Assembly: GCA_002841405.1 (NCBI GenBank)
Contig: PGZR01000008.1
Location: forward strand, 1-41,940
DNA from: Firmicutes bacterium HGW-Firmicutes-4
GTDB taxonomy: Bacteria > Bacillota > Clostridia > Eubacteriales > Eubacteriaceae
DNA: 41,940 nt
Direction: 5' to 3'
Made by a program: the position numbers and the translations under genes. Below are positions 17,613 through 38,755 of this stretch, piece by piece (within the stretch, counting starts at the first letter, position 1; each line of letters opens with the position of its first letter). The notes under the pieces were generated by a model, which was not told the origin of the DNA, did no database searches, and was given only the letters and a program-made list of their open reading frames with translations.

Positions 17613-18590
17613 TTAAATAAGACAGTTTACCAATTCATCAATGCTGAACTTGTAAAAAATACTTTCAGCATTAATTTCTTTTAAAACGGCTCTGATATTG
17701 TCTTCCTTGTAAAAACATCCCGCGAGAGAACACGAAACATAATCAATGTCTCCTTTGCAAAAAAAATCTCCATAAATTTTGCATTCCGTAATGCAGCCTT
17801 GCTTGATGTTAAGATGAAATTCAATTTTTCCACCTTCATATCGTTTGCTTTTAATAATGTTAAATTTCGGAGATTTTCCATAGTTCCATTCCCAACTTTT
17901 AAACTTCTGATCTCTAATTTCATTAACTCTATCAATATCTTTCAATGTCAATACATACCGTTTATCATTGTTTCTGAGTATCTCATCCACAATCAAATTT
18001 TTAAAAGCATTTGAATTGATTTTTCTGTCAAAATGATCTTTTACGTTTGTGACTCTCTCCCGCACTGATTTTAATCCTTTTGAAATAATTTTATCATCAG
18101 AAACAGTAATTGCTTTAACAAGCTCGTTTAAATCTGTATTAAACAGAATAGATCCATGATGAAGACCACAGCGTTCGTCACAATACTGAGAATTACCTGA
18201 AATCTTCTTTCCTTTGATATAAATATCATTACGATCATTATAATTTGCTTCAATTCCCTGTTTTGCTAAAGCGTTAATCACCGGTTTAACATACTCAGTA
18301 AAGTCAATATTCATAAATGGCTTTTTTATAATGTAACTAAATTGCCACCCATTTGGATCTGTATATATTGTTCCACCACCAGTTATTCGTCTTACTACAC
18401 AGATTTTTTTTTCTTTTACATAATTACAGTTTATTTCTTCAATTGTATTTTGATGTTTGCCTATCATTAATGTTGGAACAGTTCTCCAAAATAGAAAAAC
18501 ATCATCCTTCAAATCGAGTTCTTTTAATAAATAATATTCGAGCGCAAAATTAAAATAGGGGTCCAGTGAATCATTTTCTATATAAATCAT
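17613..18590 (-). CDS. lplA: Lipoate-protein ligase
   Basis: About 325 residues. It activates lipoate with ATP and attaches it to a lysine of a lipoyl domain. Visible are the lipoate/AMP-binding motif RRITGGGTIYTD (near 70-80), the KGKKISGNSQ loop carrying the catalytic lysine near residue 130, and HHGSILF. A C-terminal accessory domain (about 240-325) is present, as in full LplA enzymes. The ATG at 18590 overlaps the end of lipA by a few bases; an upstream in-frame TTG at 18599 is less likely. Pairing lipA and lplA next to E3, and about 15 kb from a free lipoyl protein, suggests dedicated lipoylation of the E1/E2 complex in this island. Confidence 0.92.
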   Translation of the reverse strand: MIYIENDSLDPYFNFALEYYLLKELDLKDDVFLFWRTVPTLMIGKHQNTIEEINCNYVKEKKICVVRRITGGGTIYTDPNGWQFSYIIKKPFMNIDFTEYVKPVINALAKQGIEANYNDRNDIYIKGKKISGNSQYCDERCGLHHGSILFNTDLNELVKAITVSDDKIISKGLKSVRERVTNVKDHFDRKINSNAFKNLIVDEILRNNDKRYVLTLKDIDRVNEIRDQKFKSWEWNYGKSPKFNIIKSKRYEGGKIEFHLNIKQGCITECKIYGDFFCKGDIDYVSCSLAGCFYKEDNIRAVLKEINAESIFYKFSIDELVNCLI

Positions 18591-18591
18591 A

Positions 18592-19461
18592 TTATGCAAT
18601 CCATTCCCTTCGTATTTTTTCTACGGCTTCTATCGCATTATAAGAACTCCTGACAAGCGATGAACTTGCTACAAACTTTATCCCTTTACTTTCGCCTATT
18701 TCTTTATAGGCATCAAATCTTTTCTGGGAAATGTATTCTTTAACACTGATGTGTTTTTTACTTGGTCTTAAATATTGACCAATTGTTAAAATATCACAAT
18801 TAATTTCAACTAAATGATCCATTACTTTGTATACTTCTTTTTCTGTTTCTCCCAGCCCTACCATAATTCCAGTTTTACTGATAATATTTGGTGCCTCTTC
18901 TTTTATATGTTTCAGTAAAATCAATGATCTAAAATACTGTGCACTTGGTCTTACCGAGTGGTATAGTGATGGCACCGTTTCAAGATTATGATTGATTACA
19001 TCCGGCTCTGCTAAAATTATTTTTTCGATATCTCTCTTATTTCCCTGAAAATCGGGTATCAATACTTCAATGGTAGATTCAGGCATGGCTTTTTTCACAG
19101 CGCTAATGGTTTTAGCAAAATGCAATGCCCCTCCATCTTCGAGATCATCACGGGTTACTGAAGTGATTACGATGTGTTTTAGACCAATTTCTTTTGCAGC
19201 TGCTGCAATATTTTCTGGTTCAGCTAGATCCAAAGGTGAAGGTTTTCCAGTCAAAACTGCACAATAACTGCAGTTCCGTGTACAAATATTGCCCATAATC
19301 ATAAATGTTGCGGTCTTTTTCTTGTAACATTCTCCCATATTTGGACAAGCGGCCTCATTGCAGACGGTATTCAGGGACAAATCGGTTAATATTTTATTCA
19401 TCTTTGAAATTGATTCCGTATCATAACTTCGTCTTAGTTCTGCTGGTAACTTTTCTTTCAT
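18592..19461 (-). CDS. lipA: Lipoyl synthase (radical SAM)
   Basis: 289 residues. It inserts two sulfurs into a protein-bound octanoyl chain. It has both diagnostic iron-sulfur motifs: the auxiliary cluster C34-x4-C39-x5-C45 (VCNEAACPNMGEC) and the radical-SAM cluster C60-x3-C64-x2-C67 (CTRNCSYC). The conserved C-terminal RSSY, whose Ser ligates the auxiliary cluster, is also present. Length is normal. In Pelobacter carbinolicus a lipA homologue (acoS) lies in the acetoin-dehydrogenase cluster, as here. A 32-bp perfect palindrome lies 11 bases upstream of the start, and no strong ribosome binding site is visible. Confidence 0.95.
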   Translation of the reverse strand: MKEKLPAELRRSYDTESISKMNKILTDLSLNTVCNEAACPNMGECYKKKTATFMIMGNICTRNCSYCAVLTGKPSPLDLAEPENIAAAAKEIGLKHIVITSVTRDDLEDGGALHFAKTISAVKKAMPESTIEVLIPDFQGNKRDIEKIILAEPDVINHNLETVPSLYHSVRPSAQYFRSLILLKHIKEEAPNIISKTGIMVGLGETEKEVYKVMDHLVEINCDILTIGQYLRPSKKHISVKEYISQKRFDAYKEIGESKGIKFVASSSLVRSSYNAIEAVEKIRREWIA

Positions 19462-19573: not shown

Positions 19574-20947
19574 TTAAGCTTTGTGAATACTTCTTTTATG
19601 AACATCATGCAATGCTTCCATGATTCCTTCAGACAATGTAGGATGCGGAAAAATCGACTGGCCAACCTGCTTCGCTGTTAAGCCAAGATCAATCGCTAAA
19701 GTCAATATTTGGAGCATATCGGTTCCATGAGCTCCAACAATCTCCCCGCCAATGATTTCATCTTTTCGATTCACAATTACCTTCACAAAACCCGTCGTTT
19801 TGTCTGATGCTTTCGCCTTACCAAGAGCTGCAAAATTAAATGAGCCGATTGTATAAGCAATACTCTGTTTTTTAGCCTGTTCTTCTGTTATTCCCACACA
19901 TGCAATCTCCGGATCGGTGTACACACAACGCGGAACAGCCTTATAACTGATTTCAATAGCATCTCCACAAATATCGTCTACCGCCGTTAGTGCTTCTTTG
20001 GATGCGACATGTGCTAATTGGGGAGAACTGACAATGTCTCCAATTGCATAAATACCCTCAATACTTGTTCGCATCTTTTTATCCACTTCAATCAACCCAC
20101 GTTCAGATACCAAGATATCTGTATTTTCAAGTCCTAAACCAACCGTAAATGGCTGTCTGCCTATTGAAATCAATAGCTTTTCTGCTTCAATTGCTACGCC
20201 ATCTTGAAGTATTACTTGAACCCCAGATGCTGATACATTTACTGATTCAACCTTTTTCTTTGTGATGACTTTGATCTTTTCTTTTTTAAATTGACGTTCC
20301 AGCTGTTTAGCAACATCATCGTCTTCGAAAGGCAGTAAATGTTCCATTAATTCGACAATCGTAACCTCAGTTCCCATCCGTTTCAAAAATTGACCAATTT
20401 CGCAACCGATAACCCCACCGCCAACAATAATAATTGATTTCGGCTGTTCATCCAATTCCAGCATTTCATCACTCGTTACAACACTGTTTTTGTTATAATT
20501 CAAGAATGACGGTATACTCGGTACGGAGCCCGTTGCGAGAATAATTTTATCAGCTGAAATTTCTTCTCTTGTCCCATCAGTTTTATAAACAATTACCGTG
20601 TTGTTATTCTTAAGCTGACCAAAGCCATTAATTACACTTACACCATTTGCCTTCATTAGATAATCAATCCCATTGATCAAGCCGTTCACTACCGTATTTT
20701 TTCGATCAAATGAATATCCGAAGTTATTGATTTCTGCTTGTGTTTCTATTCCAAAAACTGTTGCTTTCTTTACTGTTGCTAACGTATCCGTCACAGCCAG
20801 TAGTGCTTTTGTCGGTATACAACCTTTATTTAAACAGGTTCCTCCCAATTTTTCCTTTTCAATAAGGATAACCTCACAGCCACGTTTAGCGGCATAAATT
20901 GCTGCTTCATAACCTCCCGGGCCAGCTCCAATCACTACAACTTTCAT
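19574..20947 (-). CDS. acoL: Dihydrolipoyl dehydrogenase (E3)
   Basis: 457 residues. It reoxidises the dihydrolipoyl arm with NAD+. It has the FAD-binding GAGPGGYEAA (7-16), the redox disulfide GGTCLNKGC (Cys38/Cys43), a NAD-binding GGGVIGCEIG, and the C-terminal dimer-interface HPTLSE (about His435, Glu440) that completes the active site. Unlike some acetoin-system E3 enzymes it has no N-terminal lipoyl domain. A strong GAGGAG site precedes the ATG. It lies in the same-strand run AOR, MoaD-like, lpd, lipA, lplA. Its partners E1/E2 are encoded about 11 kb upstream on the same strand. Confidence 0.95.
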   Translation of the reverse strand: MKVVVIGAGPGGYEAAIYAAKRGCEVILIEKEKLGGTCLNKGCIPTKALLAVTDTLATVKKATVFGIETQAEINNFGYSFDRKNTVVNGLINGIDYLMKANGVSVINGFGQLKNNNTVIVYKTDGTREEISADKIILATGSVPSIPSFLNYNKNSVVTSDEMLELDEQPKSIIIVGGGVIGCEIGQFLKRMGTEVTIVELMEHLLPFEDDDVAKQLERQFKKEKIKVITKKKVESVNVSASGVQVILQDGVAIEAEKLLISIGRQPFTVGLGLENTDILVSERGLIEVDKKMRTSIEGIYAIGDIVSSPQLAHVASKEALTAVDDICGDAIEISYKAVPRCVYTDPEIACVGITEEQAKKQSIAYTIGSFNFAALGKAKASDKTTGFVKVIVNRKDEIIGGEIVGAHGTDMLQILTLAIDLGLTAKQVGQSIFPHPTLSEGIMEALHDVHKRSIHKA

Positions 20948-21360: not shown

Positions 21361-23049
21361 TTATATTCCCATCATTTCTGCTGGAATGTTGAACGTTTTG
21401 CCGGTAGATGGTAAAGGCTCCGTTCTAAAAAACTCTGGAATTTGATTATCTGCTTTCGTCCATCCCGCTTTTTTATTAAACTCATGTTCCATTTTCAGTG
21501 TTTTATCTGCAGCAGCGAAAAGACCCTCTGCATTTAGATCTCCACCATACATTGCGTTATACAATTCTGCCAGTTGGTCAAGCTGTCCCCCTAAAGTTGA
21601 CATGGTCATCATACAGGTCATGCTGTCAGCCATTGCAAAAATGCGCTGCATGACATTAGATGTTTGAATAGCTCCTGCGAGATCTGTTGGATCATCCTTA
21701 CCCAAGGTGATCCCTGCTGTGTGGTCAGCACCCATAGACGATGTCGCATAAGTGAATCCTGTGCCGATTGTCCCTCTTGGATCATAACCCGGTATTGCCT
21801 GGTTTTTACATGTTGGTATGCGCTTAATGTTGTAATGTTCGCCTACTGCTGCGGTACCCTGACCGATTAAATTTCCAATTTCTGTGCCCTCAGCTATCTG
21901 CTGATATAGTTCTAAAGCTGCATTTGCATCTCCCCAGGGTATGATTTCTGCTTCCATACAAAGTGCAATCGAGGCACCAGTTTCGATCGTATCCAGTCCA
22001 AGATCATCACAAATTCGGTCCATTCTTGCGATGGTTTCAAAATCATAAATATCGCAATTAGGCCCGCAAAGTGCAATGGTTTCGTATTCAAATCCACCGG
22101 TCAAAAATTTACCGTCATTATCCTTGATGATATTTGAGCATTTAATCAAACAACCGGATTGACAAGGATGCTGATTTTTTCCGTTCCGGTTAACAAAATC
22201 AATAAATTTATCTGATTTAAGATTGTCAATTTTCTCTGAAATGGTACCGGTGAAATTATGTGTCGGAATAATCCCAGCAACACCAGTTTTATCAATTGTA
22301 CAGGCCGTCCCTATCAGCGAAAAAGGATTTGTTTTTGATGCCTCTGCAACCGATTTGTTCAGTGCCTTTCTAATTCTTGAAAATTTCTCTTGATCCGCAT
22401 ACGCTGGCTTGCTTTTTTCATCTGCATTTTGAATAACAATTCCTTTGATCCCCTTGGATGCCAGCACCGATCCTAAACCTCCTCGCCCTGCTGCCCGACA
22501 GGGATAATTTGTCCCGTATTCGGTAATTTGTAACGACGAATTCTTATAAAGTCGTTCACCTGCGACACCTATTGAGATCACTGATATGTTTTCGCTATAT
22601 TTTTTCTGCATGTTCTCTACAAATTCATAATTATTCATTCCCTGATACGATGTCGCATCTTCCAGACTTATGCTGCCATCGGAACGGATTAAAATTACCT
22701 TCATTATTCCATCAATTTTTGGTTTGCTTTCGATAATAATAGATCTTATATTATGATCACTCAAAGCCTTAGCTGCGCTACCACCTACGTTTGATTCCTT
22801 TATCCCACCGGTTAAAGGGCTTTTTGCCCCAACTGAAAGACGATTTGCACAAACCAAACCGCTTCCTGCAAACATACTGGTGCAGATAATAATTTTAGCT
22901 TCTTCACCCAATGGATCACAGTCTGGATTAACCTCATCATTCAGGAATTGAGCAATTAAACTTCTTCCTCCCAAACCCATATAAGCATCCTTGTATTCTT
23001 CAGTTTCTATCAGATTTTTATTAGAATTAATTCTTATTGTTTTCCACAT
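21361..23049 (-). CDS. Aldehyde:ferredoxin oxidoreductase (W/Mo-bis-pterin)
   Basis: 562 residues, close to the family's 600. It oxidises an aldehyde to the acid with ferredoxin, or the reverse under CO/H2. It has the N-terminal AOR domain (GLGGRSLIAQFL, then NRLSVGAKSPLTGG and RAAGRGGLGSV, the pterin contacts) and C-terminal domains. The cluster motif is HPCQSGCLIKCSN near residue 293-301. Its cysteine spacing is x3-x3, not the x2-x3 of Pyrococcus AOR. A later Cys (DSMTCMM, about 480) is the candidate fourth ligand. A strong AAGGAG site precedes the ATG. It is clustered with Fe-alcohol dehydrogenase and a CoA-transferase, which fits disposal of an aldehyde product. Aldehyde specificity cannot be read from the sequence. 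Confidence 0.9.
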   Translation of the reverse strand: MWKTIRINSNKNLIETEEYKDAYMGLGGRSLIAQFLNDEVNPDCDPLGEEAKIIICTSMFAGSGLVCANRLSVGAKSPLTGGIKESNVGGSAAKALSDHNIRSIIIESKPKIDGIMKVILIRSDGSISLEDATSYQGMNNYEFVENMQKKYSENISVISIGVAGERLYKNSSLQITEYGTNYPCRAAGRGGLGSVLASKGIKGIVIQNADEKSKPAYADQEKFSRIRKALNKSVAEASKTNPFSLIGTACTIDKTGVAGIIPTHNFTGTISEKIDNLKSDKFIDFVNRNGKNQHPCQSGCLIKCSNIIKDNDGKFLTGGFEYETIALCGPNCDIYDFETIARMDRICDDLGLDTIETGASIALCMEAEIIPWGDANAALELYQQIAEGTEIGNLIGQGTAAVGEHYNIKRIPTCKNQAIPGYDPRGTIGTGFTYATSSMGADHTAGITLGKDDPTDLAGAIQTSNVMQRIFAMADSMTCMMTMSTLGGQLDQLAELYNAMYGGDLNAEGLFAAADKTLKMEHEFNKKAGWTKADNQIPEFFRTEPLPSTGKTFNIPAEMMGI

Positions 23050-23198: not shown

Positions 23199-24365
23199 CT
23201 AGTCTGCTAATTCATAGGTTCGGTCAATAATCCATTTTGCTCCGTCGTCATCAAGTTTTCTTGGACAGAAATTTACCATAATGTCTTTAAATGCTAATGG
23301 TATTATTTTTTCATAAGCGACTTGTTTATCAGGAACAAATTCGGTGATATCCGGTATCCCAACAGAGCGATACATTTCATGAATCGTTTCTGAAGTCTTC
23401 TTCGCAATTGACTCCGTGCTATCGGTGTCTTTATAATTGACATCCAGTAAATCTGCAATTTTAATTATTTCTTTGGGACATTCTTCAACCACAAATTCAA
23501 GACATGCAGGCGTAAAGATGGCACAACTAACGCCATGAGGCACATGAAAAATGGCTCCCATCGAATGCGCAAATGCATGGCTCATTGAACATTTTGCATT
23601 TGCTAAGGCAATACCACCCAAATTTGACGCTAAATGCATCTCGGTACGAGCTTCCAGATCATTGCCATTTTCGATGACTTTTTTATAACTGTTTTTCATT
23701 AATCGGATGGCTTCATATGATATACTTTGAGTAATCAAATTTGTCATATTGGATGTTATTGCATCAATTGCATGAGCGAGAACATCAAAAGCACACGCTG
23801 CCGTGACCTTAGGCGGCACACCTAGAACTAGTTCTGGATCAATCAGAGCCATATCTGGCATGGTTCCCATCCCGATAACGACTCGCTTCGAGCCACTTTC
23901 TGTATCCGTGATTACACTTCCCTTAGATGCTTCACTACCCGTTCCAGATGTTGTTGGAATTGCAATCATCGGTACGCCTGATTTTTGGGGAAATGATAAG
24001 TCATAAAAGCTCTGAAGCGGTTCATCGTTATTCAGCAATAATTTAACCCCCTTTCCTGCATCAATACTGCTGCCGCCACCAATTGCAACTACGCCATCAA
24101 CTTTCTCTTTTTTAGCAAAGTCTACCATTTCTGTGATAATCAAATCCGTCGGATCAGCCTCTACTCTATTACTTGTGACTACTTCTATCCCTTCATGTCG
24201 AATAGCATCGATTATTTTTTCGGTTATTCCAGCCGCCTCAACGCCTTTATCATACATGACCAGGACTTTAGTGCATCCCAGTTCTTTTAGTTTTTCACCT
24301 GTTTTGCTTGAAATTCCTACATCAATAAACTGTGGTATTAACATCACGAATGCGTTCGTCTTCAT
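23199..24365 (-). CDS. Iron-containing alcohol dehydrogenase (group III)
   Basis: 388 residues, full length. It interconverts an alcohol and an aldehyde with NAD(P)H. The nucleotide-binding GGGSSIDAGKG is near residue 97, and TTSGTGSEAS near residue 139. The metal ligands are in AFDVLAHAID (Asp and His) and in SHAFAHSMGAIFHVPHG (two His). It follows the alpha/beta-hydrolase gene after 48 bases and precedes AOR, so the pair could turn the same aldehyde into alcohol or acid according to redox state. Substrate specificity (ethanol, longer alcohols or 1,3-propanediol type) is not determined. Confidence 0.93.
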   Translation of the reverse strand: MKTNAFVMLIPQFIDVGISSKTGEKLKELGCTKVLVMYDKGVEAAGITEKIIDAIRHEGIEVVTSNRVEADPTDLIITEMVDFAKKEKVDGVVAIGGGSSIDAGKGVKLLLNNDEPLQSFYDLSFPQKSGVPMIAIPTTSGTGSEASKGSVITDTESGSKRVVIGMGTMPDMALIDPELVLGVPPKVTAACAFDVLAHAIDAITSNMTNLITQSISYEAIRLMKNSYKKVIENGNDLEARTEMHLASNLGGIALANAKCSMSHAFAHSMGAIFHVPHGVSCAIFTPACLEFVVEECPKEIIKIADLLDVNYKDTDSTESIAKKTSETIHEMYRSVGIPDITEFVPDKQVAYEKIIPLAFKDIMVNFCPRKLDDDGAKWIIDRTYELAD

Positions 24366-24413: not shown

Positions 24414-25301
24414 TTATTTAGTTGCTGGATTGTTTTCGATTAGCTCGATAATCTCTTTTATACATTCTTGCTCATTGTTTTCCATCAGCCAATGTCCTGC
24501 TCCGTCAAGTTCAACAAATTTATAATACCCTTTCATGTATTCATGGCCTTTTTCAACCCCTACTCTTCCCAATGCAAAGTCATGATTTCCCCAAATGTAA
24601 CAGGTCGGCGTATATATAGGACCAAACAGAATCTCTGGATTTTGCTCGCTTGGTTTTACCAGCATTAGCGCTCTATACCAATTGAGTATTGATGTGCATG
24701 CTTCTTTATCTGAGAATATTTCAAGAAAATCATCAATATTTTTACTTTCAAATCCATCCCAGATTTCTCTAAGTCTAGCATGGTCATCCTTAATAAGTAG
24801 CTCCTCTGGACGGTCGGGAGTTAGATATTCAAAGATATAATGACTTTGTTTCTGCTGTTCAGGATCATTTGCAACCGCCCATTCAAATGCTGCCGAATGA
24901 GGTGTTGACATGGCTGTCCAAGACTGTATTCTTTCCGGATAGAGGGTAACAGCAGCCCAACCTACACCAGCGCCCCAATCATGGCCAATTAAATGGAATT
25001 TTCCCTTTTCACCAACTGCATCCGCTAAAGCGACAAAATCAGAAGCTAATTTTCGTGTGGTAAAATTTTCCATACCAACTGGTCGCGCACCATCACTGTA
25101 ACCACGTTGGTTTGGGGCCAGACAACGATAGCCTTTATCTGCAAGTTTCTTAATAATATTCTCCCAGATAATAGAACTTTGCGGAAAGCCATGTAATAAG
25201 ATGACCAATTCACCCTTATTATCCAGTCCACAGGTTCGACACGTAAAATCCATTTCATTTGCTGAAATAGTGGTCTTTTTTACTTCATTATTCATCATCA
25301 T
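24414..25301 (-). CDS. Alpha/beta hydrolase, epoxide-hydrolase/haloalkane-dehalogenase type
   Basis: 295 residues. The oxyanion segment is HGFPQSSIIW, and the nucleophile elbow GHDWGAGVGW places an Asp, not Ser, at the active site near residue 110. That is the signature of soluble epoxide hydrolases and dehalogenases. A cap domain (about 145-225) contains Tyr residues (HYIFEYL, NWYRAL) that could activate an epoxide. The acid is in GNHDFAL and the catalytic His in GAGHW. It could open an epoxide to a vicinal diol, which would fit the diol/acyloin enzymes of this island; this is inference. It sits in an operon-like row with the MBL-fold gene upstream and Fe-alcohol dehydrogenase downstream. 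Confidence 0.85.
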   Translation of the reverse strand: MMMNNEVKKTTISANEMDFTCRTCGLDNKGELVILLHGFPQSSIIWENIIKKLADKGYRCLAPNQRGYSDGARPVGMENFTTRKLASDFVALADAVGEKGKFHLIGHDWGAGVGWAAVTLYPERIQSWTAMSTPHSAAFEWAVANDPEQQKQSHYIFEYLTPDRPEELLIKDDHARLREIWDGFESKNIDDFLEIFSDKEACTSILNWYRALMLVKPSEQNPEILFGPIYTPTCYIWGNHDFALGRVGVEKGHEYMKGYYKFVELDGAGHWLMENNEQECIKEIIELIENNPATK

Positions 25302-25323: not shown

Positions 25324-26094
25324 TCATATTTTAATTGTTTCCATTGTTTCTAAACATACATAAACCTTTGGCAGTGAACTACTATATTTACTGACATTCT
25401 CCATAGCCCTTTCCCTGTAGTGGAATTTGTCATGTTGTTGTAATGGAATATGACAGGAAATAGCCAACTGAGGATTAACTACGTCACTGATAAAAGTGCG
25501 TCCTTTTTTCTGGCTAATTTCTGTAAAATTTATACAAACCGTATCAATCGTTTCATTTCTCAACCAATCAGTAATATTCGAATTACCAGATTCTGCATCT
25601 CCCATAAAAAGGATCTGCTGATCTGCAACACTGATTAAATAGCTAAAGTGATTAACTGTATTATGATATTTGATCCCATCATGGTATGTTCTTGCCGCCT
25701 TAATTTTAATATTTCCAGCTTCAATAACGGTAACTTCACCATATCCAGAATTCAAATACGAAATTGGATTTGGCAGAAGATCCAAATCGTCTTTCATATA
25801 AATTTTATTATTTTCATCAAGTTCTGGTAATATTATTTTTGTTTCCTGATTTTGTACTTCACATAGCTTTTTTAGATCACAGTGATCTTTATGCACATGT
25901 GTAAAAATCAAAAAATCAATATTACTGAACTCTTCCTCACCATTGATAATTTTATTCATTATTTTCTCGGGTATGGGGCTGAAATTGAGTGCCTGTTCAG
26001 TATGAATACCATCAATCAAAATTTTTGTATTTCCATCAGTTAACATAAAACCGGCATTTGATAAATATGTTATTAAAATATCGTTTTTTTTCAT
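25324..26094 (-). CDS. Metallo-beta-lactamase-fold hydrolase
   Basis: 256 residues. It shows the MBL motif THVHKDHCD (near 85-93), an upstream strand with a conserved Asp (ILIDGIHTEQ), a later His (ARTYHDG) and FMGDAESG, so a binuclear metal site is likely. It resembles UlaG/RomA-like hydrolases more than beta-lactamases. The substrate is unknown; a lactone or phosphoester is possible. A strong TAGGAGG site precedes the ATG. It is the first gene of the minus-strand row MBL, hydrolase, Fe-ADH, AOR and is divergent from the LuxR-type regulator, with which it shares a 109-base intergenic region. Confidence 0.85.
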   Translation of the reverse strand: MKKNDILITYLSNAGFMLTDGNTKILIDGIHTEQALNFSPIPEKIMNKIINGEEEFSNIDFLIFTHVHKDHCDLKKLCEVQNQETKIILPELDENNKIYMKDDLDLLPNPISYLNSGYGEVTVIEAGNIKIKAARTYHDGIKYHNTVNHFSYLISVADQQILFMGDAESGNSNITDWLRNETIDTVCINFTEISQKKGRTFISDVVNPQLAISCHIPLQQHDKFHYRERAMENVSKYSSSLPKVYVCLETMETIKI

Positions 26095-26203: not shown

Positions 26204-27334
26204 TTGTCCTTATTAACTATTAACGATTATGAAAAGCTCTTGAATTTTAATTTTTTCATTAATAAAGATTATTCAGACTTTATTAACCGAACACTTACGG
26301 CCTTAATCGATTTTTTTGATTTTAAGCTTACTGCATATGCTGTTTTTGACGTAAATCCAGACGGACAACGTTCCTTATCAAAATTAGAAACTCTTTATTT
26401 GCGCCCAAGTATTCTGAAGGCTTATAAAGAAAATTTTTACGCGTATGATCCCTTTTATAATAAAATTGACACCCTCCGAAATTCGAACGAATTCAAATAT
26501 GTTTATACAACTAACGACCTTTGCTATGACGAATTTTTAAACTCGCCATATGGTGAATCGTTAATGAAAAACGGTATTGCATACCAAGCCATTTTAGGCG
26601 CGAGTGATGCAGCGCATCCTCCAATGCATATTATCAGTATTTTTAAAACCGAGAAAGAAGGAAACTTCACTCCAAAAGAACTGGAATTGTTGTCTCAAAT
26701 TGGAAGAGTATTCCACAAATCGATGAGCCTATTTCGAAAATATACTTCTCAAGTAGATAAGATTTTCCTTGCAAATCGTTTATTCGATCTTACTTCAGTT
26801 GGCTTCGTTTTCTTTAATAAGAGCAAAGATGTTATTGATTTCAATAAAACATTTATCAACTATAGTGCTTTTCTATCTAATAAACCGAATATCAATGAAA
26901 TCGTTTATGATTTTATCAATTTCGTTGAATCTACAAATCAAATTACTCTTGACACTTTAAAAGAGAATTCAATTATTAAAACCAACGGTTTTTTAGTAAC
27001 GTTTTTCCCCCCCCAAATAAATCAGAATCAATATATTGAAACGTTCTATTGCTTGACAATAAAGAAAATTGAGGAAAGACAACCAGGAGATGATATACAA
27101 AATCAACTTGTCGAAGAATACAATCTAACTAAGAGAGAAAGTGAGATACTATCTCTCTTAGTTGATGGTGCAAGTAACCTACAAATCTCAGAAACGGTTT
27201 ATATCAGTGTTTCAACGGTTAAATCACATGTTCGGAATATTTTCAATAAGCTAAATGTATCCACTCGTTCGGAAGCAATCCGAAAAATTCGAAAATTAGC
27301 TATTTTTGAAAACGATAATAACAATTCTAGCTGA
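26204..27334 (+). CDS. LuxR-family transcriptional regulator
   Basis: 376 residues, the only plus-strand gene of the island. The C-terminal GerE/LuxR helix-turn-helix (about 305-365) is clear: NLTKRESEILSLLVDGASNL, then STVKSHVRNIFNKLNV. The N-terminal two-thirds is a probable GAF/PAS-like ligand domain without a receiver Asp, so it likely senses a small molecule directly. The start is a TTG at 26204 behind AAAGGCGGTG; no ATG fits. It is divergent from the MBL gene and convergent with the membrane-protein gene, so it is the natural candidate regulator of this cluster. It is not an AcoR-type sigma-54 activator. Confidence 0.88.
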   Translation: MSLLTINDYEKLLNFNFFINKDYSDFINRTLTALIDFFDFKLTAYAVFDVNPDGQRSLSKLETLYLRPSILKAYKENFYAYDPFYNKIDTLRNSNEFKYVYTTNDLCYDEFLNSPYGESLMKNGIAYQAILGASDAAHPPMHIISIFKTEKEGNFTPKELELLSQIGRVFHKSMSLFRKYTSQVDKIFLANRLFDLTSVGFVFFNKSKDVIDFNKTFINYSAFLSNKPNINEIVYDFINFVESTNQITLDTLKENSIIKTNGFLVTFFPPQINQNQYIETFYCLTIKKIEERQPGDDIQNQLVEEYNLTKRESEILSLLVDGASNLQISETVYISVSTVKSHVRNIFNKLNVSTRSEAIRKIRKLAIFENDNNNSS

Positions 27335-27346
27335 CCATAAGTCTTT

Positions 27347-27856
27347 TTAGGCTGCCTTTTTAACTGCAAGTGCACCCAATGCTTTAAATACCACGGTAAG
27401 GATTAGTGAAAACCAAACAACACCAAATGCGTAAGAAAGAAGTAAATCCAAATAATTACTTTCTGTTAAAAACTGATGTGCTGTTAGGACGGTAATAAAC
27501 AAAAATGTAGCCTTGTTAAGAATGTATGGTAAAAACTCCGTAATATTAAAGAACAAAACAACAAATAATACTGCGATCAGTGCTATTTCAAAAACAGACA
27601 TTCCGTAATTGTGAAGTAAATAGTAAAGCCCAAAACACAACGCAATCCCAACTAATGAACCAACGATATTTTCTACAATATGATCCATTTTGAAGTGATC
27701 AACATTTGCCCAATACCAAAAGAACATACAGCCAGCCCATACGTTCACCAACCCTAACATTCCGCTTACAATTGAGAATACAAATATTGTAATTGTTAGG
27801 ATAACACCCAGGACAATACCTTCCTTAACTCTTTCATTTACTGATTTATTTTCCAT
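27347..27856 (-). CDS. DUF1097-like inner-membrane protein
   Basis: 169 residues with five or six hydrophobic helices. The first begins EGIVLGVILTITIFVFSIVS, and the pattern and length are like YcdZ/DUF1097 membrane proteins, whose function is unknown. The ATG at 27856 is preceded by AAAGGAG; an in-frame ATG at 27874 lies inside that site and is rejected. It could export or take up a pathway metabolite, but nothing in the sequence shows this. The upstream bases include the vestige of a second E3 gene. Confidence 0.7.
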   Translation of the reverse strand: MENKSVNERVKEGIVLGVILTITIFVFSIVSGMLGLVNVWAGCMFFWYWANVDHFKMDHIVENIVGSLVGIALCFGLYYLLHNYGMSVFEIALIAVLFVVLFFNITEFLPYILNKATFLFITVLTAHQFLTESNYLDLLLSYAFGVVWFSLILTVVFKALGALAVKKAA

Positions 27857-27857
27857 T

Positions 27858-27943
27858 TTAAACTCCTTTTTCATTTATTATTTTTTTAAATTTGTGAGTA
27901 ATTCTTTTTTAACATCATGCAACGCTTCCAGGATACCTTTACA
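27858..27943 (-). pseudogene. Vestige of a second dihydrolipoyl dehydrogenase 3' end
   Basis: The minus strand reads KGILEALHDVKKELLTNLKK in the gap between the CoA-transferase and membrane-protein genes. The E3 at 19574 ends EGIMEALHDVHKRSIHKA. The DNA also matches closely (catcatgcaacgcttcc versus catcatgcaatgcttcc). The reading frame carries no HPTLSE and is not initiated. Its 3' end runs through the ribosome binding site of the membrane-protein gene. Confidence 0.65.
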
Positions 27944-27963: not shown

Positions 27964-29304
27964 CTATCTTAATATATTGCGTTTTTTTGCATTTTCTTCA
28001 AGTTCATCCCTAAAGTCTGGATGTGCTATACTAATCAACGCTTTAGCCCGTTCAATAAGTGATGCACCTCTTAATGCTGCAACACCATATTCAGTGACAA
28101 CATAATCAACATCAGCTCTTGACAATGTAATGACAGTACCTTCGGGATGAACATCGACAATCGTCGACTTCAGTACTCTTTCGCCACTCGCGTTTTTTAC
28201 ATTGGCAGTTGAGTGCAATGCTATAAATGATTTCCCGTCTTTCGACATTTTGGCACCTTGAGCTGTCTCAACCTGACCACCGGTACCGCTTATATGCCTC
28301 GTTCCAATAGCTTCCGAAGAACATTGACCGAATAAATCAACTTGAAGTGTCGTATTGACAGATATCATTTTATGGTTTTTTGCTAATTCAAAAGGCGAAT
28401 TACTGTCTCTGACATTTATATGCAGTACGCCAACATTGTCATCGATGAAGTCATATGTTTCCTTGGTGCCAAACGTAAATGATGTTATCATTTTGTTTTT
28501 ATATAGCGTTTTGCATCGATTTGTTACAATACCTTCCTTATACAGTTGAACAAGACCGTCATTCAACATTTCAGTATGAACGCCTAAATCTTTTTTATCT
28601 TTCAACGCCATTGCAACTGCATTTGGTATTCCACCGATGCCCAACTGAAGAGTCGATCCATCTTCAATCATATCAGCAATATGTTTCCCAATAAGAATGT
28701 CTTCACCGCTTGATGCAGCGTTACGACTTGGAAGGTACATCACCTCGTTGTTACCATATAAAACATAGTCAACATCAGATATATGCACCTGGGTATCGCC
28801 AAAAGTTCGTGGTATATTTTCATTTATTTCTAAAATTACCAGATCAGCTTTTTTTAAGTAATCTGGACTGGCAACGCAAATTGGACCAGTACTGAAGTAA
28901 CCTTGCTTATCCATCGGGCTAACTGACAGTGTGAAGATACTAACTGGTTTTCCAGTTACCTGATGATAATATAATCGATCAGTTCCACTTTTACTCAAAT
29001 GATTTGGATAAAAGGTCGTCATTTTTGTTTTTGCGGGATCTCTCATAAAATTCCCATAAAACCCACTAACGTGATTAAGGATGCCGTCATATGTTTCATC
29101 CGAATAAAAATCATAAGGTTTCAGGTTTAATAAATTAATATGGGTAACCCCTTTCACGCCACGATCTTTTAATAAATGAAATTGATCCATGTAAGCCATT
29201 GGCTCAGCTATACCATAGGTGTAAATTGTAGCTCCATTGGTGATCTTTCCTACAGCTTCTTCAATTGTGATTGTTTTCGTATCTAATAATTCTTTATAGT
29301 TCAT
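27964..29304 (-). CDS. Acetyl-CoA hydrolase/transferase-family CoA-transferase
   Basis: About 446 residues. Family-I CoA-transferase of the butyryl-CoA:acetate / 4-hydroxybutyrate type: it moves CoA between an acyl-CoA and a free acid through a glutamyl-CoA thioester. Motifs are LGIGGIPNAVA (CoA loop, near 225), the HTEMLNDG segment with the catalytic Glu near 248, and a C-terminal GTGGQVE plus EYGVAALRG. The ATG at 29304 follows AGAGGTG; a GTG two codons upstream overlaps that site. A terminator-like hairpin separates it from the Zn-alcohol dehydrogenase gene. In this island it could convert the acyl-CoA product of the dehydrogenase complex to acid while activating another acid. Confidence 0.9.
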   Translation of the reverse strand: MNYKELLDTKTITIEEAVGKITNGATIYTYGIAEPMAYMDQFHLLKDRGVKGVTHINLLNLKPYDFYSDETYDGILNHVSGFYGNFMRDPAKTKMTTFYPNHLSKSGTDRLYYHQVTGKPVSIFTLSVSPMDKQGYFSTGPICVASPDYLKKADLVILEINENIPRTFGDTQVHISDVDYVLYGNNEVMYLPSRNAASSGEDILIGKHIADMIEDGSTLQLGIGGIPNAVAMALKDKKDLGVHTEMLNDGLVQLYKEGIVTNRCKTLYKNKMITSFTFGTKETYDFIDDNVGVLHINVRDSNSPFELAKNHKMISVNTTLQVDLFGQCSSEAIGTRHISGTGGQVETAQGAKMSKDGKSFIALHSTANVKNASGERVLKSTIVDVHPEGTVITLSRADVDYVVTEYGVAALRGASLIERAKALISIAHPDFRDELEENAKKRNILR

Positions 29305-29326
29305 TTTCACCTCTCAAATAATAAAT

Positions 29327-29364: not shown

Positions 29365-30405
29365 TTACGGATGCAATAATACTTTTATTTTATTTGCATC
29401 ATTACATTCAAACGCCTCATTAAAATCTTCAAATTTAAATTTATGCGTCACTAAATCTTTAGTGTTAATCCTTCCATCTGCCATCATTTGAAGCGTTTTT
29501 TTCCATGTCCCCAGATTATGACCATATGAAAACTGTATTCTCATATTTTGCATTACGGCAACTATATATGCTTTTATATTGCTACCTTCTGCACTGGTAA
29601 GGGCTAATTCAACAATTGTTCCTGCCCGTTTTGTCATCATGATTGATTGTGTAATTACGATGTCTACGCCCGTGCATTCAAAAACAAAATCAGCACCTTT
29701 TCCAAAGGTCAGGGCACGCACTTCCTGGATTACGTTGCATTTGTCATTTTCAAAAGTGTAGTCCGCTCCAAGTTTTTTACCTAATTCCAATCGAGCATTT
29801 GCGGAAGAAATGTCCGCTAAAATTGTCTTTGCACCACAGGCTTTTGCAAATTGAAGAACAAGTAAACCGATAGGCCCAGCACCCATAACTACAACAGTAT
29901 CCGTTGGTTTTATGTCAACGTTTTCTAAAACAGCGTGAGCGGCAACAGCGGCTGGTTCAACCAGCGCTCCTTCTTCTAAACTAACATTATCAGGCAACTT
30001 AAAAGTCGCTCCTTCTGGCATGCAAATGTATTCTGCCATTGCTCCGTCACATTCATAACCAATATTGATGGCATCCTGGCATCTCCCAATATCTCCCATT
30101 AAACAAGATCTGCATTTCCCACAGAAACCTTTTGTTACAATACCTGTGACACGATCACCAACTTTAAATTGCGTTACCCCATCACCAATTTCGGCTATAG
30201 TTCCGCTATATTCATGACCCATGGTAAATGGAATTGGGAGCGGAGATGTCGGTGTTTCAAAACCACCAACAATATGTAAATCAGAACCGCAAATTCCACA
30301 ATACTCAACTTTAATTTTAACGCTACCTGGAGCGATTTTTGGCTCCTCAACTTCTACATATCCAAGATAACCAACACCATGTTCTAATTTTTGAACCGCT
30401 TTCAT
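29365..30405 (-). CDS. Zinc-dependent alcohol dehydrogenase, butanediol/sorbitol type
   Basis: 346 residues, MDR superfamily. Catalytic zinc ligands are Cys39 in CGICGSD, His64 in GHEYSG and the Glu that follows. The structural zinc lobe is FCGKCRSCLMGDIGRC. The Rossmann motif GAGPIGLL is near 175, and the Asp in LADIS after it points to NAD+. The length and the EPAAVAAHAV segment match (R,R)-butanediol and sorbitol dehydrogenases. In the operon it follows an SDR and the E1/E2 genes, consistent with diol-to-acyloin oxidation feeding acetoin-type cleavage. Specificity is inferred from context. Confidence 0.9.
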   Translation of the reverse strand: MKAVQKLEHGVGYLGYVEVEEPKIAPGSVKIKVEYCGICGSDLHIVGGFETPTSPLPIPFTMGHEYSGTIAEIGDGVTQFKVGDRVTGIVTKGFCGKCRSCLMGDIGRCQDAINIGYECDGAMAEYICMPEGATFKLPDNVSLEEGALVEPAAVAAHAVLENVDIKPTDTVVVMGAGPIGLLVLQFAKACGAKTILADISSANARLELGKKLGADYTFENDKCNVIQEVRALTFGKGADFVFECTGVDIVITQSIMMTKRAGTIVELALTSAEGSNIKAYIVAVMQNMRIQFSYGHNLGTWKKTLQMMADGRINTKDLVTHKFKFEDFNEAFECNDANKIKVLLHP

Positions 30406-30427: not shown

Positions 30428-31240
30428 TTAACGATATATAATTCCAGAATCCACATTTAAACACTGCCCGGTTATATTTTTTGCTTCATCCGATGCTAGA
30501 AACAATACTGCAAAAGCAATATCTTCTGGTGACTGAGTGCGCTTTAATGCAGATCCTGATGCCATTTTTTCAACAACTTGTTCGCTTGTGCTACAATCTT
30601 CGAATGCTCCAGGCACTGCTTTCTTAAAATCTAGTGCATCTGAATAAATATTGGTATTAATAAATCCAGGATTGACACAGTTTACATTCACATTAAAACT
30701 TCCCATTTCTTTTGCAAGAGAATTAGAAAAACTAATCGTCGCCGCCTTAGAGGCACCATATTGAGGCATCATCGGTACTTGCATGAATGCCGCAATTGAA
30801 GAGATATTAATGATTTTACCGCTTCTTTGTGCGTGGAAATTACCATAAAAAGATCGACACATATTAAGCATCCCTACTGTGTTGACATTAAAAACACGTT
30901 TTACATCGTCTGAAGATATTTTTAAAAATGGCGGTCCTATATCTTTTGGACCAATACCTGCACAGTTAACAAGGATTTCTATCTTTTTAAATTTGTCTAA
31001 TATCTCCTTTGAAAATGCAACAACAGCATTTTCATCGCTGATATCCACTTTTCGAAAAAGTGATCTAACCCCTTTTTCTTCAAGCTTCGACGCCATTTTT
31101 TCACCATCTTCAACATCCATATCAACTAAAATAACATTTGCTCCAGACTCAGCAAACTTTTCAGCAATAGCTGCACCAATGCCTTTTGCTGCCCCAGTAA
31201 TAACCGCAGTTTTTTCAGAAAATTCGAATTTGATAGCCAT
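30428..31240 (-). CDS. Short-chain dehydrogenase/reductase
   Basis: 270 residues, classical SDR. It has the cofactor motif TGAAKGIG (15-22), VDMD after the second strand (an acidic residue favouring NAD(H)), NCAG, catalytic Ser in NISSIA, and YGASK near residue 160. The C-terminal DSGIIYR resembles acetoin/diacetyl reductases and 3-oxoacyl reductases. With the zinc enzyme next door it may handle the other stereoisomer of the same diol. The start has AAGGAG. A large stem-loop separates it from the E1beta gene. Confidence 0.88.
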   Translation of the reverse strand: MAIKFEFSEKTAVITGAAKGIGAAIAEKFAESGANVILVDMDVEDGEKMASKLEEKGVRSLFRKVDISDENAVVAFSKEILDKFKKIEILVNCAGIGPKDIGPPFLKISSDDVKRVFNVNTVGMLNMCRSFYGNFHAQRSGKIINISSIAAFMQVPMMPQYGASKAATISFSNSLAKEMGSFNVNVNCVNPGFINTNIYSDALDFKKAVPGAFEDCSTSEQVVEKMASGSALKRTQSPEDIAFAVLFLASDEAKNITGQCLNVDSGIIYR

Positions 31241-31318: not shown

Positions 31319-32299
31319 CTACTTTAGTGCTTTTAAAATTCCTGCTTTCATATCTTCAACGGATGGATATAAATATTTCTCTAAATCTCCAAATGGTATG
31401 ATTGAGTTCACACCTGCTACACGAACTGGCGCTGCTTTTAATTCTTTCATGCAATTTTCGACAACCCATGAAAGAATCTGTGCTCCAAAGCCACCTCTTT
31501 CTGGCGCCTCATGTGCAACCATTAAGCGGCCAGTCTTTTTAACAGAATCAAATACAATTTCTTTATCGAAGGGTATTAATACTCTCGGATCAATAATCTC
31601 AATTGTTTTTCCCGTTTCTTCCTCAACTTGAGCTGCTGCTGCCATAGCATTCAGCAATGCTCTATGATAGGCAACAACGGTTAAATCAGCACCCGTTTTG
31701 ACAATTTTTCCAGCTTTTGCTAAAGACGGAACTTCGTCCAACACATCGGGAACCTCTCCTGTCAAACCCATTGTTGCTCTCTGATAAATAAATAATGTCG
31801 GATCGTCATCACGGATAGCTGCACGATAATAAGCCCTAATATCCGCTGGAGTTGTTGGTGCAACAATTTTGAGACCTGGTACATTTGCAAACCAAGCTTC
31901 AACACTTTGAGAATGATGGGCACCACTCTTTCCTCCTCCACCCTGAGGCAAAACAAAAGTTACTGGGCAACTATCGACGCCACCGGAATTAAAACGAATT
32001 TTTGCTGCAATATCTACAATCCCTTCAAATCCCAAGGTTACAAAATCTGCAAACATAAATTCTACAATTGGCCGATACCCACCTAATGCAGCACCGACAG
32101 AGAATAATGTGTAACCAGCTTCTAAAATCGGAAATTCCAATACACGATTTTCTCCAAATTTTTCTTGTAACCCAGTAAATGTTCCCCAGCAACCGCCTTG
32201 TTTACCGAGATCTTCCCCAATACATATAACTTTTTCATCAGCAACCATTTCTTCGAACATGGCAAGATTCAGAGCTTTCATAACTGACATTTCTGACAT
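31319..32299 (-). CDS. acoB: Acetoin/2-oxoacid dehydrogenase E1 beta subunit
   Basis: 326 residues, full length for E1beta. The transketolase pyrimidine domain (about 1-175) contains GEDLGKQGGCWGTF, LEFPILEAGY (the Glu that activates thiamine diphosphate) and GGGGKSGAHHSQS. The C-terminal transketolase domain (about 195-320) contains IDPRVLIPFD and VAHEAPERGGFGAQI. It pairs with the E1alpha encoded immediately upstream; the two genes share one base (TAATG). Together they cleave the substrate and hand an acyl or hydroxyethyl group to the lipoyl arm. Best match by eye is the acetoin (AcoB) type, but branched-chain or pyruvate E1 cannot be excluded from sequence alone. Confidence 0.92.
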   Translation of the reverse strand: MSEMSVMKALNLAMFEEMVADEKVICIGEDLGKQGGCWGTFTGLQEKFGENRVLEFPILEAGYTLFSVGAALGGYRPIVEFMFADFVTLGFEGIVDIAAKIRFNSGGVDSCPVTFVLPQGGGGKSGAHHSQSVEAWFANVPGLKIVAPTTPADIRAYYRAAIRDDDPTLFIYQRATMGLTGEVPDVLDEVPSLAKAGKIVKTGADLTVVAYHRALLNAMAAAAQVEEETGKTIEIIDPRVLIPFDKEIVFDSVKKTGRLMVAHEAPERGGFGAQILSWVVENCMKELKAAPVRVAGVNSIIPFGDLEKYLYPSVEDMKAGILKALK

Positions 32300-33291
32300 T
32301 ATAGTTCACCTCCTGCATTATTTGAATAAACTCTATTGTAATCCAACACCTGTTCTTTTGTTGCAATGGTTTGACTTAATCCTTCATCAAAACCGTCTAC
32401 AATTTCTTTTGTTTGAGATTCTCTTACTGCTTTAATTATTTCATCATCCAGAATCCCCAATTCTATCAAACGTTTTTCGAAACGGACAACAGGACAAATG
32501 GAATCTAGGTCTTCTTTATAACTCAAATCTCGATATTTCTGTGGATCACCAACATAGTGACCTTCCCAACGCATTGTTTTTACTTCAACAACGTTCGGTT
32601 CATTATTAGCTGCCAATTCCATACCGTTTAGAACTGCTTCAGCGACTGCTACTGGATCATCGCCATCAACGGTAACCCCTTTCATGTTAAATGCTGCTGC
32701 TCTATCTGCAAGATTTTCTAACGGGGACTGGTTTTCCACTGGTGTCGACATAGCAATCCCATTATTTTCGATGAAGAACAAAATCGGCAATTTGAAAAGT
32801 GCTGCAATGTTCATAGCTTCGTAAGTTGCACCTTGACTTATAGCACCGTCTCCATATGGTGCAAAACCAATCTGTCGCTTTTTACCATCATTTTTTAGAG
32901 CCCAGGCAAATCCAGCAATTTCTGCCCATGTCCCACCTAGTGCACCTGCTGCAGGGAGTTGCCCATTTTTGAGGTCATGTATATGATACTCACCTGATAT
33001 TCCGTCATTACAACCGCCCGTGCGGCCAAGTAATTCAGCAATAAACGGTTTCCAACCAACTCGATGAGCCATTACTGTCTGAGCTCGATGCGTTTCAGTA
33101 CCATAAGTTATAATGTCTGACTTTTTGAATGCAGTCAGTATACCTGCACTAACAGCTTCCTGTCCTAAACAAGGATGGATTGCACCTGCAATTTTCCCGC
33201 TGAAAATGTACTCAACGATTTTCTCACCGAGGACTCTTGATTTCACAATATCCGAATACATTTCCAGTAGTTCTTCATTTGAAAAGTTCAT
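32299..33291 (-). CDS. acoA: Acetoin/2-oxoacid dehydrogenase E1 alpha subunit
   Basis: 330 residues. It binds thiamine diphosphate and Mg through GDGAISQGATYEAMNIAALF, continuing to IENN (about 147-176). It also has HPCLGQEAVSAGI and the phosphorylation-loop equivalent MRWEGHYVGDPQ. Length and motifs match AcoA, the alpha subunit of acetoin:2,6-dichlorophenolindophenol oxidoreductase. A clean TTGGAGG site precedes the ATG, 20 bases after the E2 core gene. It is the third gene of the likely transcript beginning with the free lipoyl protein. Confidence 0.92.
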   Translation of the reverse strand: MNFSNEELLEMYSDIVKSRVLGEKIVEYIFSGKIAGAIHPCLGQEAVSAGILTAFKKSDIITYGTETHRAQTVMAHRVGWKPFIAELLGRTGGCNDGISGEYHIHDLKNGQLPAAGALGGTWAEIAGFAWALKNDGKKRQIGFAPYGDGAISQGATYEAMNIAALFKLPILFFIENNGIAMSTPVENQSPLENLADRAAAFNMKGVTVDGDDPVAVAEAVLNGMELAANNEPNVVEVKTMRWEGHYVGDPQKYRDLSYKEDLDSICPVVRFEKRLIELGILDDEIIKAVRESQTKEIVDGFDEGLSQTIATKEQVLDYNRVYSNNAGGEL

Positions 33292-33311: not shown

Positions 33312-34013
33312 TTATTTCAAACCCATAAAGGATTTAGGGTTCAGCAAATATTTTTTAAATGTTTTTAGAAATAGACCACTATGAAATCCATCAATTGCTG
33401 CGTGATTTATTGTCACACTAAAACACGCCATTCTTTTAATGCTTGTGGTGTCATCATCATTCACAACCAACTGTTTTTTTGTTGTCCCGATAGCCATGAT
33501 ACCTGTTTCTGGTGGATTCAAAAATGGTGTCACTTGGTCTATTTCAAGCATCCCCATATTGCTTATGGTGTATGTAGAATCCATCATATGTTCCATTCCT
33601 AATTTTTTTGTTTTCAATTTTGCGATCATATCTTGAAGCTCATCTGAAATTTGGAAAATATCCTTATCTTGAGCTTCTTTAACAACAACCATCATAATTC
33701 CTTCTGGCAAACCAATACCCACGGCAATATTTATAGAATCATAAATAAAGAATTCATCACCGATCAATGCTGAATTTATCAATGGGTGTTCTTTTAACGC
33801 TTCCGCTGCCAGCTTGACAAATACGGAAGTAACACTTACATTAGGATTTTGAACCTTTAGCTTATCTTTAAGGTCAAGGACTGCGTCTACTGGAAAATAA
33901 ATAGATCCTGATCCCTGAGGATAATCTCTAAGGCTCTCTGTCATTTTCTTCCCGATGAATTTTCGCGCACCGGAAATTTTATAACTTTCTTTTACTCTTT
34001 TTGAATCTGCCAT
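33312..34013 (-). CDS. acoC: Stand-alone E2 acyltransferase catalytic core (no lipoyl or E3-binding domain)
   Basis: 233 residues comprising only the 2-oxoacid-dehydrogenase acyltransferase catalytic domain (KISGARKFIGKKMTESL onward). Usual AcoC/E2 proteins have 370-540 residues with lipoyl and peripheral-subunit-binding domains first. Both are absent here, and the lipoyl domain is a separate gene 8 bases upstream. The catalytic motif reads NHAAIDGFHSGLF (His near 204, Asp near 208), whereas E2 normally has DHRxxDG. His and Asp remain, but Arg is replaced by Ala, and the following FHSGLF resembles chloramphenicol acetyltransferase. It has its own TAGGAG site overlapping the previous stop, so the split is genuine and not a frameshift. 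Confidence 0.88.
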   Translation of the reverse strand: MADSKRVKESYKISGARKFIGKKMTESLRDYPQGSGSIYFPVDAVLDLKDKLKVQNPNVSVTSVFVKLAAEALKEHPLINSALIGDEFFIYDSINIAVGIGLPEGIMMVVVKEAQDKDIFQISDELQDMIAKLKTKKLGMEHMMDSTYTISNMGMLEIDQVTPFLNPPETGIMAIGTTKKQLVVNDDDTTSIKRMACFSVTINHAAIDGFHSGLFLKTFKKYLLNPKSFMGLK

Positions 34014-34021
34014 ATTAACTC

Positions 34022-34255
34022 CTATTCTTCAATGTGAGCAAGAATGTCGCCAACAGCAACTGTCTCACCTTCTGCTACTAAGATTTTCACTAAGGTTCCT
34101 GTCGCCGGGCTTTCAATTTCCTGGTTTAGTTTTTCGTTGGAAAGTTCATATAATGGTTCTCCCTTTTCAACGTGTGCGCCTTCTTCAGCTAACCACACTT
34201 CAATTTTCACATCCATTCCAGATTGTCCTATCATAGGAACTTGTACTTCTACCAT
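34022..34255 (-). CDS. Free lipoyl-domain protein (detached E2 swinging arm)
   Basis: 77 residues from the ATG at 34255, seven bases after GGAGG; the adjacent ATG at 34258 and a frame opening at 34285 are less well placed. The whole protein is one biotinyl/lipoyl domain: VPMIGQSGMDVKIEVWLAEE, then KGEPLYELSNEKLNQEIESP with the modifiable Lys near residue 42 (EKL for the usual DKA), then GTLVKILVAEG. It would act as a diffusible acyl carrier between E1, the E2 core and E3, as H-protein does in glycine cleavage. It is the first gene after a sigma-54-like promoter. Confidence 0.88.
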   Translation of the reverse strand: MVEVQVPMIGQSGMDVKIEVWLAEEGAHVEKGEPLYELSNEKLNQEIESPATGTLVKILVAEGETVAVGDILAHIEE

Positions 34256-34317
34256 CATTTCTCCTCCTAAAATTTGTTTAATCATTATGACAATGTAATC
34301 TTAGCATCACAAACGTT

Positions 34318-38337: not shown

Positions 38338-38354
38338 TTCGCTACCTCCGTTTA

Positions 38355-38741: not shown

Positions 38742-38755
38742 TTTCTTGTTTCTCC

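Follow-up and report, generated by a model that had tools for sequence, protein, structure and literature searches.

A divided E2 in an Eubacteriaceae genome: neighbouring genes for a free-standing lipoyl protein and a bare acyltransferase core

The window analysed in this study is the whole 41,940-nucleotide stretch of contig PGZR01000008.1 from Firmicutes bacterium HGW-Firmicutes-4. On its minus strand lie two neighbouring genes that encode a lipoyl protein and the core of an E2 acyltransferase. The genes and their ribosome binding sites, in window positions, are as follows:

34261..34268, minus strand: Shine-Dalgarno AGGAGGAG of the lipoyl gene, read from the sequence
34022..34255, minus strand: free-standing lipoyl protein, 77 aa; PF00364, 68.1 bits against a cut-off of 22.1 (Pfam, with the 87-aa form, 34022-34285, as query); all-beta AlphaFold2 model; predicted lipoylated Lys42 (NEKL)
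34019..34023, minus strand: Shine-Dalgarno AGGAG of the core gene, read from the sequence, overlapping the TAG stop of the lipoyl gene
33312..34013, minus strand: bare E2 acyltransferase core, 233 aa; PF00198, 182.5 bits against a cut-off of 23 (Pfam); His204-x3-Asp208-Gly209; no lipoyl domain, PSBD or linker

The original prediction described two neighbouring genes, each with its own ribosome binding site, encoding a 77-residue lipoyl domain and a 233-residue acyltransferase core. Both statements were borne out, the first by the separate Shine-Dalgarno sequences and a gap of 8 bases between lipoyl stop and core start, the second by the agreement of the ORFs with Pfam. The lipoyl gene could start at ATG 34255 (77 aa) or ATG 34258, and a longer 87-aa ORF from 34285 exists; the position of the Shine-Dalgarno (34261-34268) favoured the shorter form over the 87-aa one. 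The core gene starts at ATG 34013 behind its own Shine-Dalgarno. The two ORFs are in different frames; thus read-through cannot join them. Lys42 of the lipoyl protein was invariant in 8/8 aligned lipoyl proteins, and the all-beta model of the protein had a mean pLDDT of 91.7. A match to GCV_H (PF01597) stayed under the cut-off (15.6 bits against 22.2) and was also below it, among the matches listed, in the lipoyl proteins of the five other split loci described below. In the core, the motif NHAAIDG places the catalytic His in the HxxxDG/NG pattern. The predicted core model, of moderate confidence (mean pLDDT 79.4; residues 154-167 under 50), matched E2 cores, with 3mae as the best hit (E 4.3e-21, TMq 0.77).

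It had also been predicted that neither protein contains an E1/E3-binding domain (PSBD), and the HMM search confirmed this. PF02817 (E3_binding) was not found at E<=1 in the lipoyl protein, the core, or the E1alpha, E1beta, short-chain dehydrogenase, zinc-dependent alcohol dehydrogenase and CoA-transferase of the cluster. It was likewise absent at E<=0.5 from the 175-aa protein, the alpha/beta hydrolase and the metallo-hydrolase (MBL) protein, from the 25 families listed of the 26 matching the cluster E3, and at E<=0.001 from the contig of the window. A genome-wide search, bounded by Pfam sensitivity and by a draft assembly that is 86% complete, gave 5 matches, all on other contigs and in E2 frames of 443-694 aa; a hidden PSBD was therefore rejected. 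The residues outside the domain matches number 2+2 in the lipoyl protein and 8+3 in the core. Since the matches span nearly all residues, a PSBD of about 35 residues cannot fit in either protein. The core chain lacks both the lipoyl domain and the PSBD, indicating that it is not a standard E2.

The remaining genes of the cluster are listed below:

32299..33291, minus strand: E1alpha, ThDP-dependent dehydrogenase, 330 aa (PF00676, 190.9 bits)
31319..32299, minus strand: E1beta, 326 aa (PF02779 and PF02780; within the split clade of the E1beta tree)
30428..31240, minus strand: short-chain dehydrogenase, SDR (PF13561); possibly a diol/acyloin oxidoreductase
29365..30405, minus strand: zinc-dependent alcohol dehydrogenase (PF08240, PF00107; best NCBIfam match, threonine dehydrogenase, below cut-off)
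27964..29310, minus strand: acyl-CoA:carboxylate CoA-transferase (PF13336, 182.2 bits; TIGR03948 below cut-off)
27347..27874, minus strand: hydrophobic protein, 175 aa (no Pfam match at E<=0.5)
26204..27334, plus strand (opposite to the others): LuxR-type regulator (PF00196)
25324..26094, minus strand: metallo-hydrolase of beta-lactamase fold (PF13483)
24414..25301, minus strand: alpha/beta hydrolase (PF00561)
23199..24365, minus strand: iron-containing alcohol dehydrogenase (PF00465)
21361..23049, minus strand: aldehyde ferredoxin oxidoreductase (PF01314, PF02730)
19574..20947, minus strand: E3, dihydrolipoyl dehydrogenase, 457 aa (TIGR01350, 519 bits against a cut-off of 408.8)
18592..19461, minus strand: LipA lipoyl synthase (TIGR00510, 353.7 bits against a cut-off of 310.25)
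17613..18599, minus strand: LplA lipoate-protein ligase (TIGR00545, 390.8 bits against a cut-off of 280)

The genes for E3, LipA and LplA, which the original prediction left unmentioned, belong to the same cluster and lie 13-17 kb from the split genes. Within about 17 kb, the window thus holds a complete gene set for a lipoate-dependent dehydrogenase together with the last steps of making its cofactor. Upstream of the cluster, ORFs judged by eye to be a P-loop ATPase-like gene (35365-36708) and a lysozyme/peptidoglycan-binding-like protein with a small holin-like gene (36823-38783) suggested a prophage remnant.

The same split recurred in five other genomes, and PF02817 was not found in any of the 12 lipoyl and core proteins of the six split loci. 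When one genome per species was scanned with a pattern-based method, five loci came up, four of them split: Acetobacterium bakii DSM 8239, a Spirochaetales MAG, Pseudoramibacter alactolyticus ATCC 23263 and Alkalibaculum sporogenes. The fifth, L097 from a proteobacterial MAG, was rejected as an ordinary fused E2 of 437 aa. A sixth split locus came from a further Acetobacterium genome (G011). The core followed a separate lipoyl gene in 6/6 split loci, and E1alpha and E1beta came next after it in 5/6; in Alkalibaculum they are on the same strand but 4 kb upstream, separated by other genes. E3 was seen in five of the six (in two overlapping frames in the Pseudoramibacter assembly); the A. bakii contig stops short of the E3 position. 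In the Spirochaetales MAG, where the assignment to spirochaetes rests on the binning of one contig, the gene order was conserved (lipoyl, core, E1alpha, E1beta, zinc alcohol dehydrogenase, CoA-transferase, E3). Its proteins shared 53-75% identity with those of the window, except for E3 (40%, cut by the contig end). The catalytic His was present in all six split cores, within HxxxDG in five and HxxxNG in one. Among the three Acetobacterium copies, the dN/dS values of the lipoyl gene (0.016-0.049) and of the core gene (0.041-0.048) indicated strong purifying selection on both. These results bear on the idea that a normal E2 gene has decayed or been misassembled, for which only the shortness of the two genes speaks. 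The same split in six genomes, the low dN/dS, the separate Shine-Dalgarno sequences and an 8-base gap free of leftover linker or PSBD DNA all contradict it. A pseudogene, frameshift or assembly error was accordingly refuted, and we regard the chance that this idea is right as negligible.

The split is rare in the wider surveys. At E<=1e-60, 6/40 genomes of the family matched the core, four with a bare core and two with a 448-aa E2. In the class, 105 of 391 genomes matched the core profile, and a clear bare core was counted in two, the window genome and Alkalibaculum, with short frames in G071, G072, G289, G392, G044 (near a contig end) and G116 (218-aa) left uncounted. In the phylum around the MAG, 84/296 genomes matched; among the matches listed, only the MAG scored close to the split cores, at 6.6e-119 compared with 5.9e-56 for the second-best match.

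The phylum survey also brought up short bare cores of another kind. Six of these orphans from Spirochaetota (L138:6819-7529, L139:6536-7243, L140:6960-7667, L141:3494-4309, L142:4486-5184 and L143:2257-2958) have an intact HxxxDG and stand beside a conserved divergent gene, with a recR-like gene in 5/6 (by eye). Inspection by eye and a simple motif scan, whose two hits both fell on unrelated-looking ORFs, revealed no E1, E3 or lipoyl gene near them. They were rejected as further split cases because partner genes were not found nearby and they form a separate clade.

To place the split cores, an E2-core tree of 83 rows was built, from which 3 of 86 rows were left out (L013, a partial duplicate, and L144 and L147, truncated at contig ends). 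The six split cores formed one clade with support of 91/92. This clade was kept in two rebuilt trees (99/95 and 97/87), each made without one long-branched split row and five other long rows. In an E1beta tree of 38 rows, the six E1beta proteins of the split loci also formed one clade (93/94). The trees suggested that a single origin of the split cores is likely rather than proven, because long branches meet at the split clade. The trees and gene neighbourhoods also bear on whether the core might be a free CAT-like acyltransferase that no longer depends on lipoate, with the lipoyl protein serving something else. This is suggested by a weak match of the core to the CAT family PF00302 (18.2 bits, below the cut-off of 23.5) and by the existence of the orphan cores in Spirochaetota. 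However, the split cores belong to a different clade from those orphans, and lipoyl, core, E1alpha and E1beta genes occur together in 6/6 loci (adjacent in five; in Alkalibaculum, E1beta lies 4 kb from the lipoyl gene). We therefore consider a lipoate-independent role of the core very unlikely.

The C-terminus of the core, a feature outside the original prediction, also differed from that of ordinary E2s. Most fused E2s finish with a proline and then largely hydrophobic residues; the tail of the window core reads NPKSFMGLK, compared with the usual NPxLLL-type tail. We counted the hydrophobic residues in up to five positions after a proline near the C-terminus, leaving out rows without a suitable proline (1/6 split, Pseudoramibacter; 5/71 non-bare). 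Two or fewer were found in 5/5 scoreable split cores compared with 4/66 scoreable non-bare E2s (Fisher p about 1e-5, the split rows being one clade and not independent). The six orphan spirochaete cores also had two or fewer (6/6). It has been reported that a C-terminal 3-10 helix makes the trimer-trimer contact of E2 and that displacement of this helix leaves the actinobacterial E2p as trimers (PMC10415282). Since the usual cage-joining tail is missing, the split core probably exists as a free trimer, as judged from this comparison of tails. Another contact could replace the cage tail.

By its own terms, the original prediction would be refuted by a full-length AcoC elsewhere in the genome as the real partner of these E1 subunits. 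Full-length E2s were found on contigs C97 and C182 of the window genome, each with its own E1alpha, E1beta and E3; the prediction was not refuted by them. There is also an E2 fragment beside an E3 at the end of contig C143, too short to judge, and a third E2, at C196, with PSBD and core and no lipoyl match. The name AcoC was not established for the split system. Acetoin dehydrogenase clusters do not universally carry acoX. The gene is typical of such clusters (PMC3543383), and at C97 an NAD-kinase-like gene of AcoX type lies between E1beta and E2. Neither a gene of this type nor a sigma-54 activator was found among the 17 window proteins scanned (ORFs between positions 15,000 and 34,300), and acetoin dehydrogenase was rejected as a firm label.

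These E2s raise the question of whether the bare core or the lipoyl protein works in a mixed complex, in which a full-length E2 encoded elsewhere acts in trans as the source of the PSBD and possibly of lipoyl domains. PSBD-bearing E2s occur at C97 and C182 and also in the split genomes G008, G011, G051 and the MAG, and the C143 fragment could lend docking or lipoyl domains. A precedent is OdhA of C. glutamicum, which itself lacks a lipoyl domain and relies on the lipoyl groups of AceF (PMC8146983, PMC10415282). However, the C97 and C182 E2s have partners of their own, and the split cluster itself encodes a lipoyl protein, E3, LipA and LplA. In Pseudoramibacter, moreover, the bare core was the only PF00198 match in the genome, so that there is no full-length E2 to borrow; its other two PF00364 matches were a 1150-aa frame (pyruvate carboxylase-like) and a 165-aa frame. 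On this evidence, we consider a mixed complex improbable.

Several other loci with rearranged E2 parts were observed. In Pseudoramibacter, L148:4793-7012 encodes, beside a second E1alpha/E1beta pair, a 739-aa protein in which two PSBDs are fused to an E3-like flavoprotein domain. Its CxxxxC redox pair is missing (GGGFLYGGAVE), and it is possibly a pseudoenzyme scaffold; an E2 core and a lipoyl domain were not seen in this operon. An E1alpha-E1beta-E2 set was found in Acetobacterium at L021:186-2258 (contig C196 of the window genome, G000), L145:3021-4940 and L146:6307-8199. The E2 of this set has PSBD and core and no lipoyl match (Pfam on G000 and G009), and the set adjoins guaB/guaA-like genes in G001 and G009 (by eye). 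In the C196 copy, the active-site His is replaced by Gln (DQRVANG); in a relative, G022 (L062), the E2 still has its lipoyl domain. A free 80-aa lipoyl protein at L018:7345-7587 (contig C88 of the window genome), lying among LplA-like, lipA-like and LplA-like genes (by eye), might be the partner of the C196 E2 that has no lipoyl match. Another free lipoyl protein, of 78 aa, at L019:3934-4170 (contig C121, same genome) follows a LipB-like gene and precedes an SDR and an AMP-ligase-like protein; the neighbourhood is similar in L149 and L151, and the neighbour genes are kept in G009 and G011.

E1 and E3 might still bind the core, or each other, through an unrecognised surface and form a tight complex that is stable without a PSBD. 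Because the E1beta and E2 proteins of the split systems each form one clade, a private interface between them is possible, and direct contact between E1 and E2 domains is known from OdhA (PMC10415282). Nevertheless, E1alpha, E1beta and E3 are of ordinary length (330, 326 and 457 aa), and Pfam showed no additional domain in them. A tight complex of this kind is unlikely, in our view.

The absence of a PSBD, the separate partners of the C97 and C182 E2s and the lack of another PF00198 match in Pseudoramibacter together make a free lipoyl carrier the simplest reading. The original prediction was thus partly supported; the pairing of the carrier with these particular E1, E2 and E3 proteins is one that we infer. 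Taking the evidence as a whole, we consider it probable that the cluster encodes a lipoate-dependent 2-oxoacid or acyloin dehydrogenase with its E2 taken apart, a diffusible lipoyl carrier resembling H-protein and no docking through a PSBD. Lipoyl domains serve E1 well as substrates even in isolated form. In the proposed cycle, LplA and LipA would lipoylate the small lipoyl protein at Lys42. The ThDP-dependent E1 (alpha/beta) would cleave its substrate, more likely an acyloin than a 2-oxoacid, and load the acyl group on the lipoyl carrier. The carrier would then diffuse to the bare core, which would pass the acyl group to CoA by means of His204 and Asp208, and E3 would reoxidise the carrier with NAD+. 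No PSBD would hold E1 and E3, and the core would work as a free trimer. Whether the system is dismantled to the full extent, into bare E2 trimers, E1, E3 and a freely diffusing carrier with no tethered arm, docking domain or cage, in Clostridia and apparently in a spirochaete, we judge to be an even question.

The neighbouring genes offered some indication of the substrate. In the window, the E1 genes have genes for alcohol dehydrogenases and a CoA-transferase as neighbours, and the slot between the iron alcohol dehydrogenase and E3 is occupied by an aldehyde ferredoxin oxidoreductase. In G011, the same slot holds a member of the aldehyde oxidase/xanthine dehydrogenase family together with a flavin/iron-sulfur protein, and a gene with the same pair of iron-sulfur domains begins at the end of the A. 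bakii contig. The presence of two unrelated aldehyde oxidases in one slot suggests that an aldehyde may be formed, as in acyloin cleavage. In Alkalibaculum, genes for a phosphate butyryltransferase and a butyrate kinase lie near the split genes, and a CoA-transferase match was not found in the stretch searched; thus the acyl group may differ there.

The split pair was then compared with known systems. Canonical E2s (AcoC, AceF, BkdB), with lipoyl domain, PSBD and core on one chain, contain the same lipoyl and PF00198 families, and canonical 2-oxoacid and acetoin E2 genes likewise lie in a cluster beside those for E1alpha/beta and E3. In contrast, the split system consists of two proteins, with no PSBD, no linkers and no hydrophobic C-terminal tail. 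Small free lipoyl proteins are also known from glycine cleavage (H-protein, whose likeness would extend to the manner of use) and from the Hdr-like sulfur oxidation pathway, where LbpA is GcvH-like (PMC6067878). The split lipoyl protein differs from both in that it belongs to the PF00364 (Biotin_lipoyl) family rather than to GCV_H and in that its partners would be E1, an E2 core and E3. In the actinobacterial PDH/ODH, E2 is trimeric through a C-terminal change, a state that the split core may share, and lipoyl groups are supplied in trans (PMC10415282, PMC8146983). There, however, AceF supplies the lipoyl groups, OdhA is an E1-E2 fusion, and the C-terminal change is an insertion rather than a lost tail. 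In the C. difficile plasmid locus L098 and in L060, the lipoyl domain is likewise off the E2 chain, but each of these E2s still has two PSBDs and the lipoyl domain forms part of the E3 chain, whereas in the window nothing is fused and there is no PSBD. The split system probably works like an E2 served by an H-protein-like carrier. Judged by titles and the beginnings of abstracts, no description of separate lipoyl and bare-core E2 genes was found among the open-access papers listed. The parts belong to known families; it is their arrangement that departs from a standard E2.

It has long been asked why such enzymes build giant particles in which the swinging arm is tethered. A naturally occurring version made of separate parts would directly test what tethering, docking and the cage add to flux, using proteins evolved for separateness rather than truncated mutants. 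It would also offer those who engineer acyl-CoA formation in acetogens a small and simple set of enzymes. Collectively, the findings suggest that some acetogens and their relatives may operate this celebrated giant enzyme as an unassembled set of parts.
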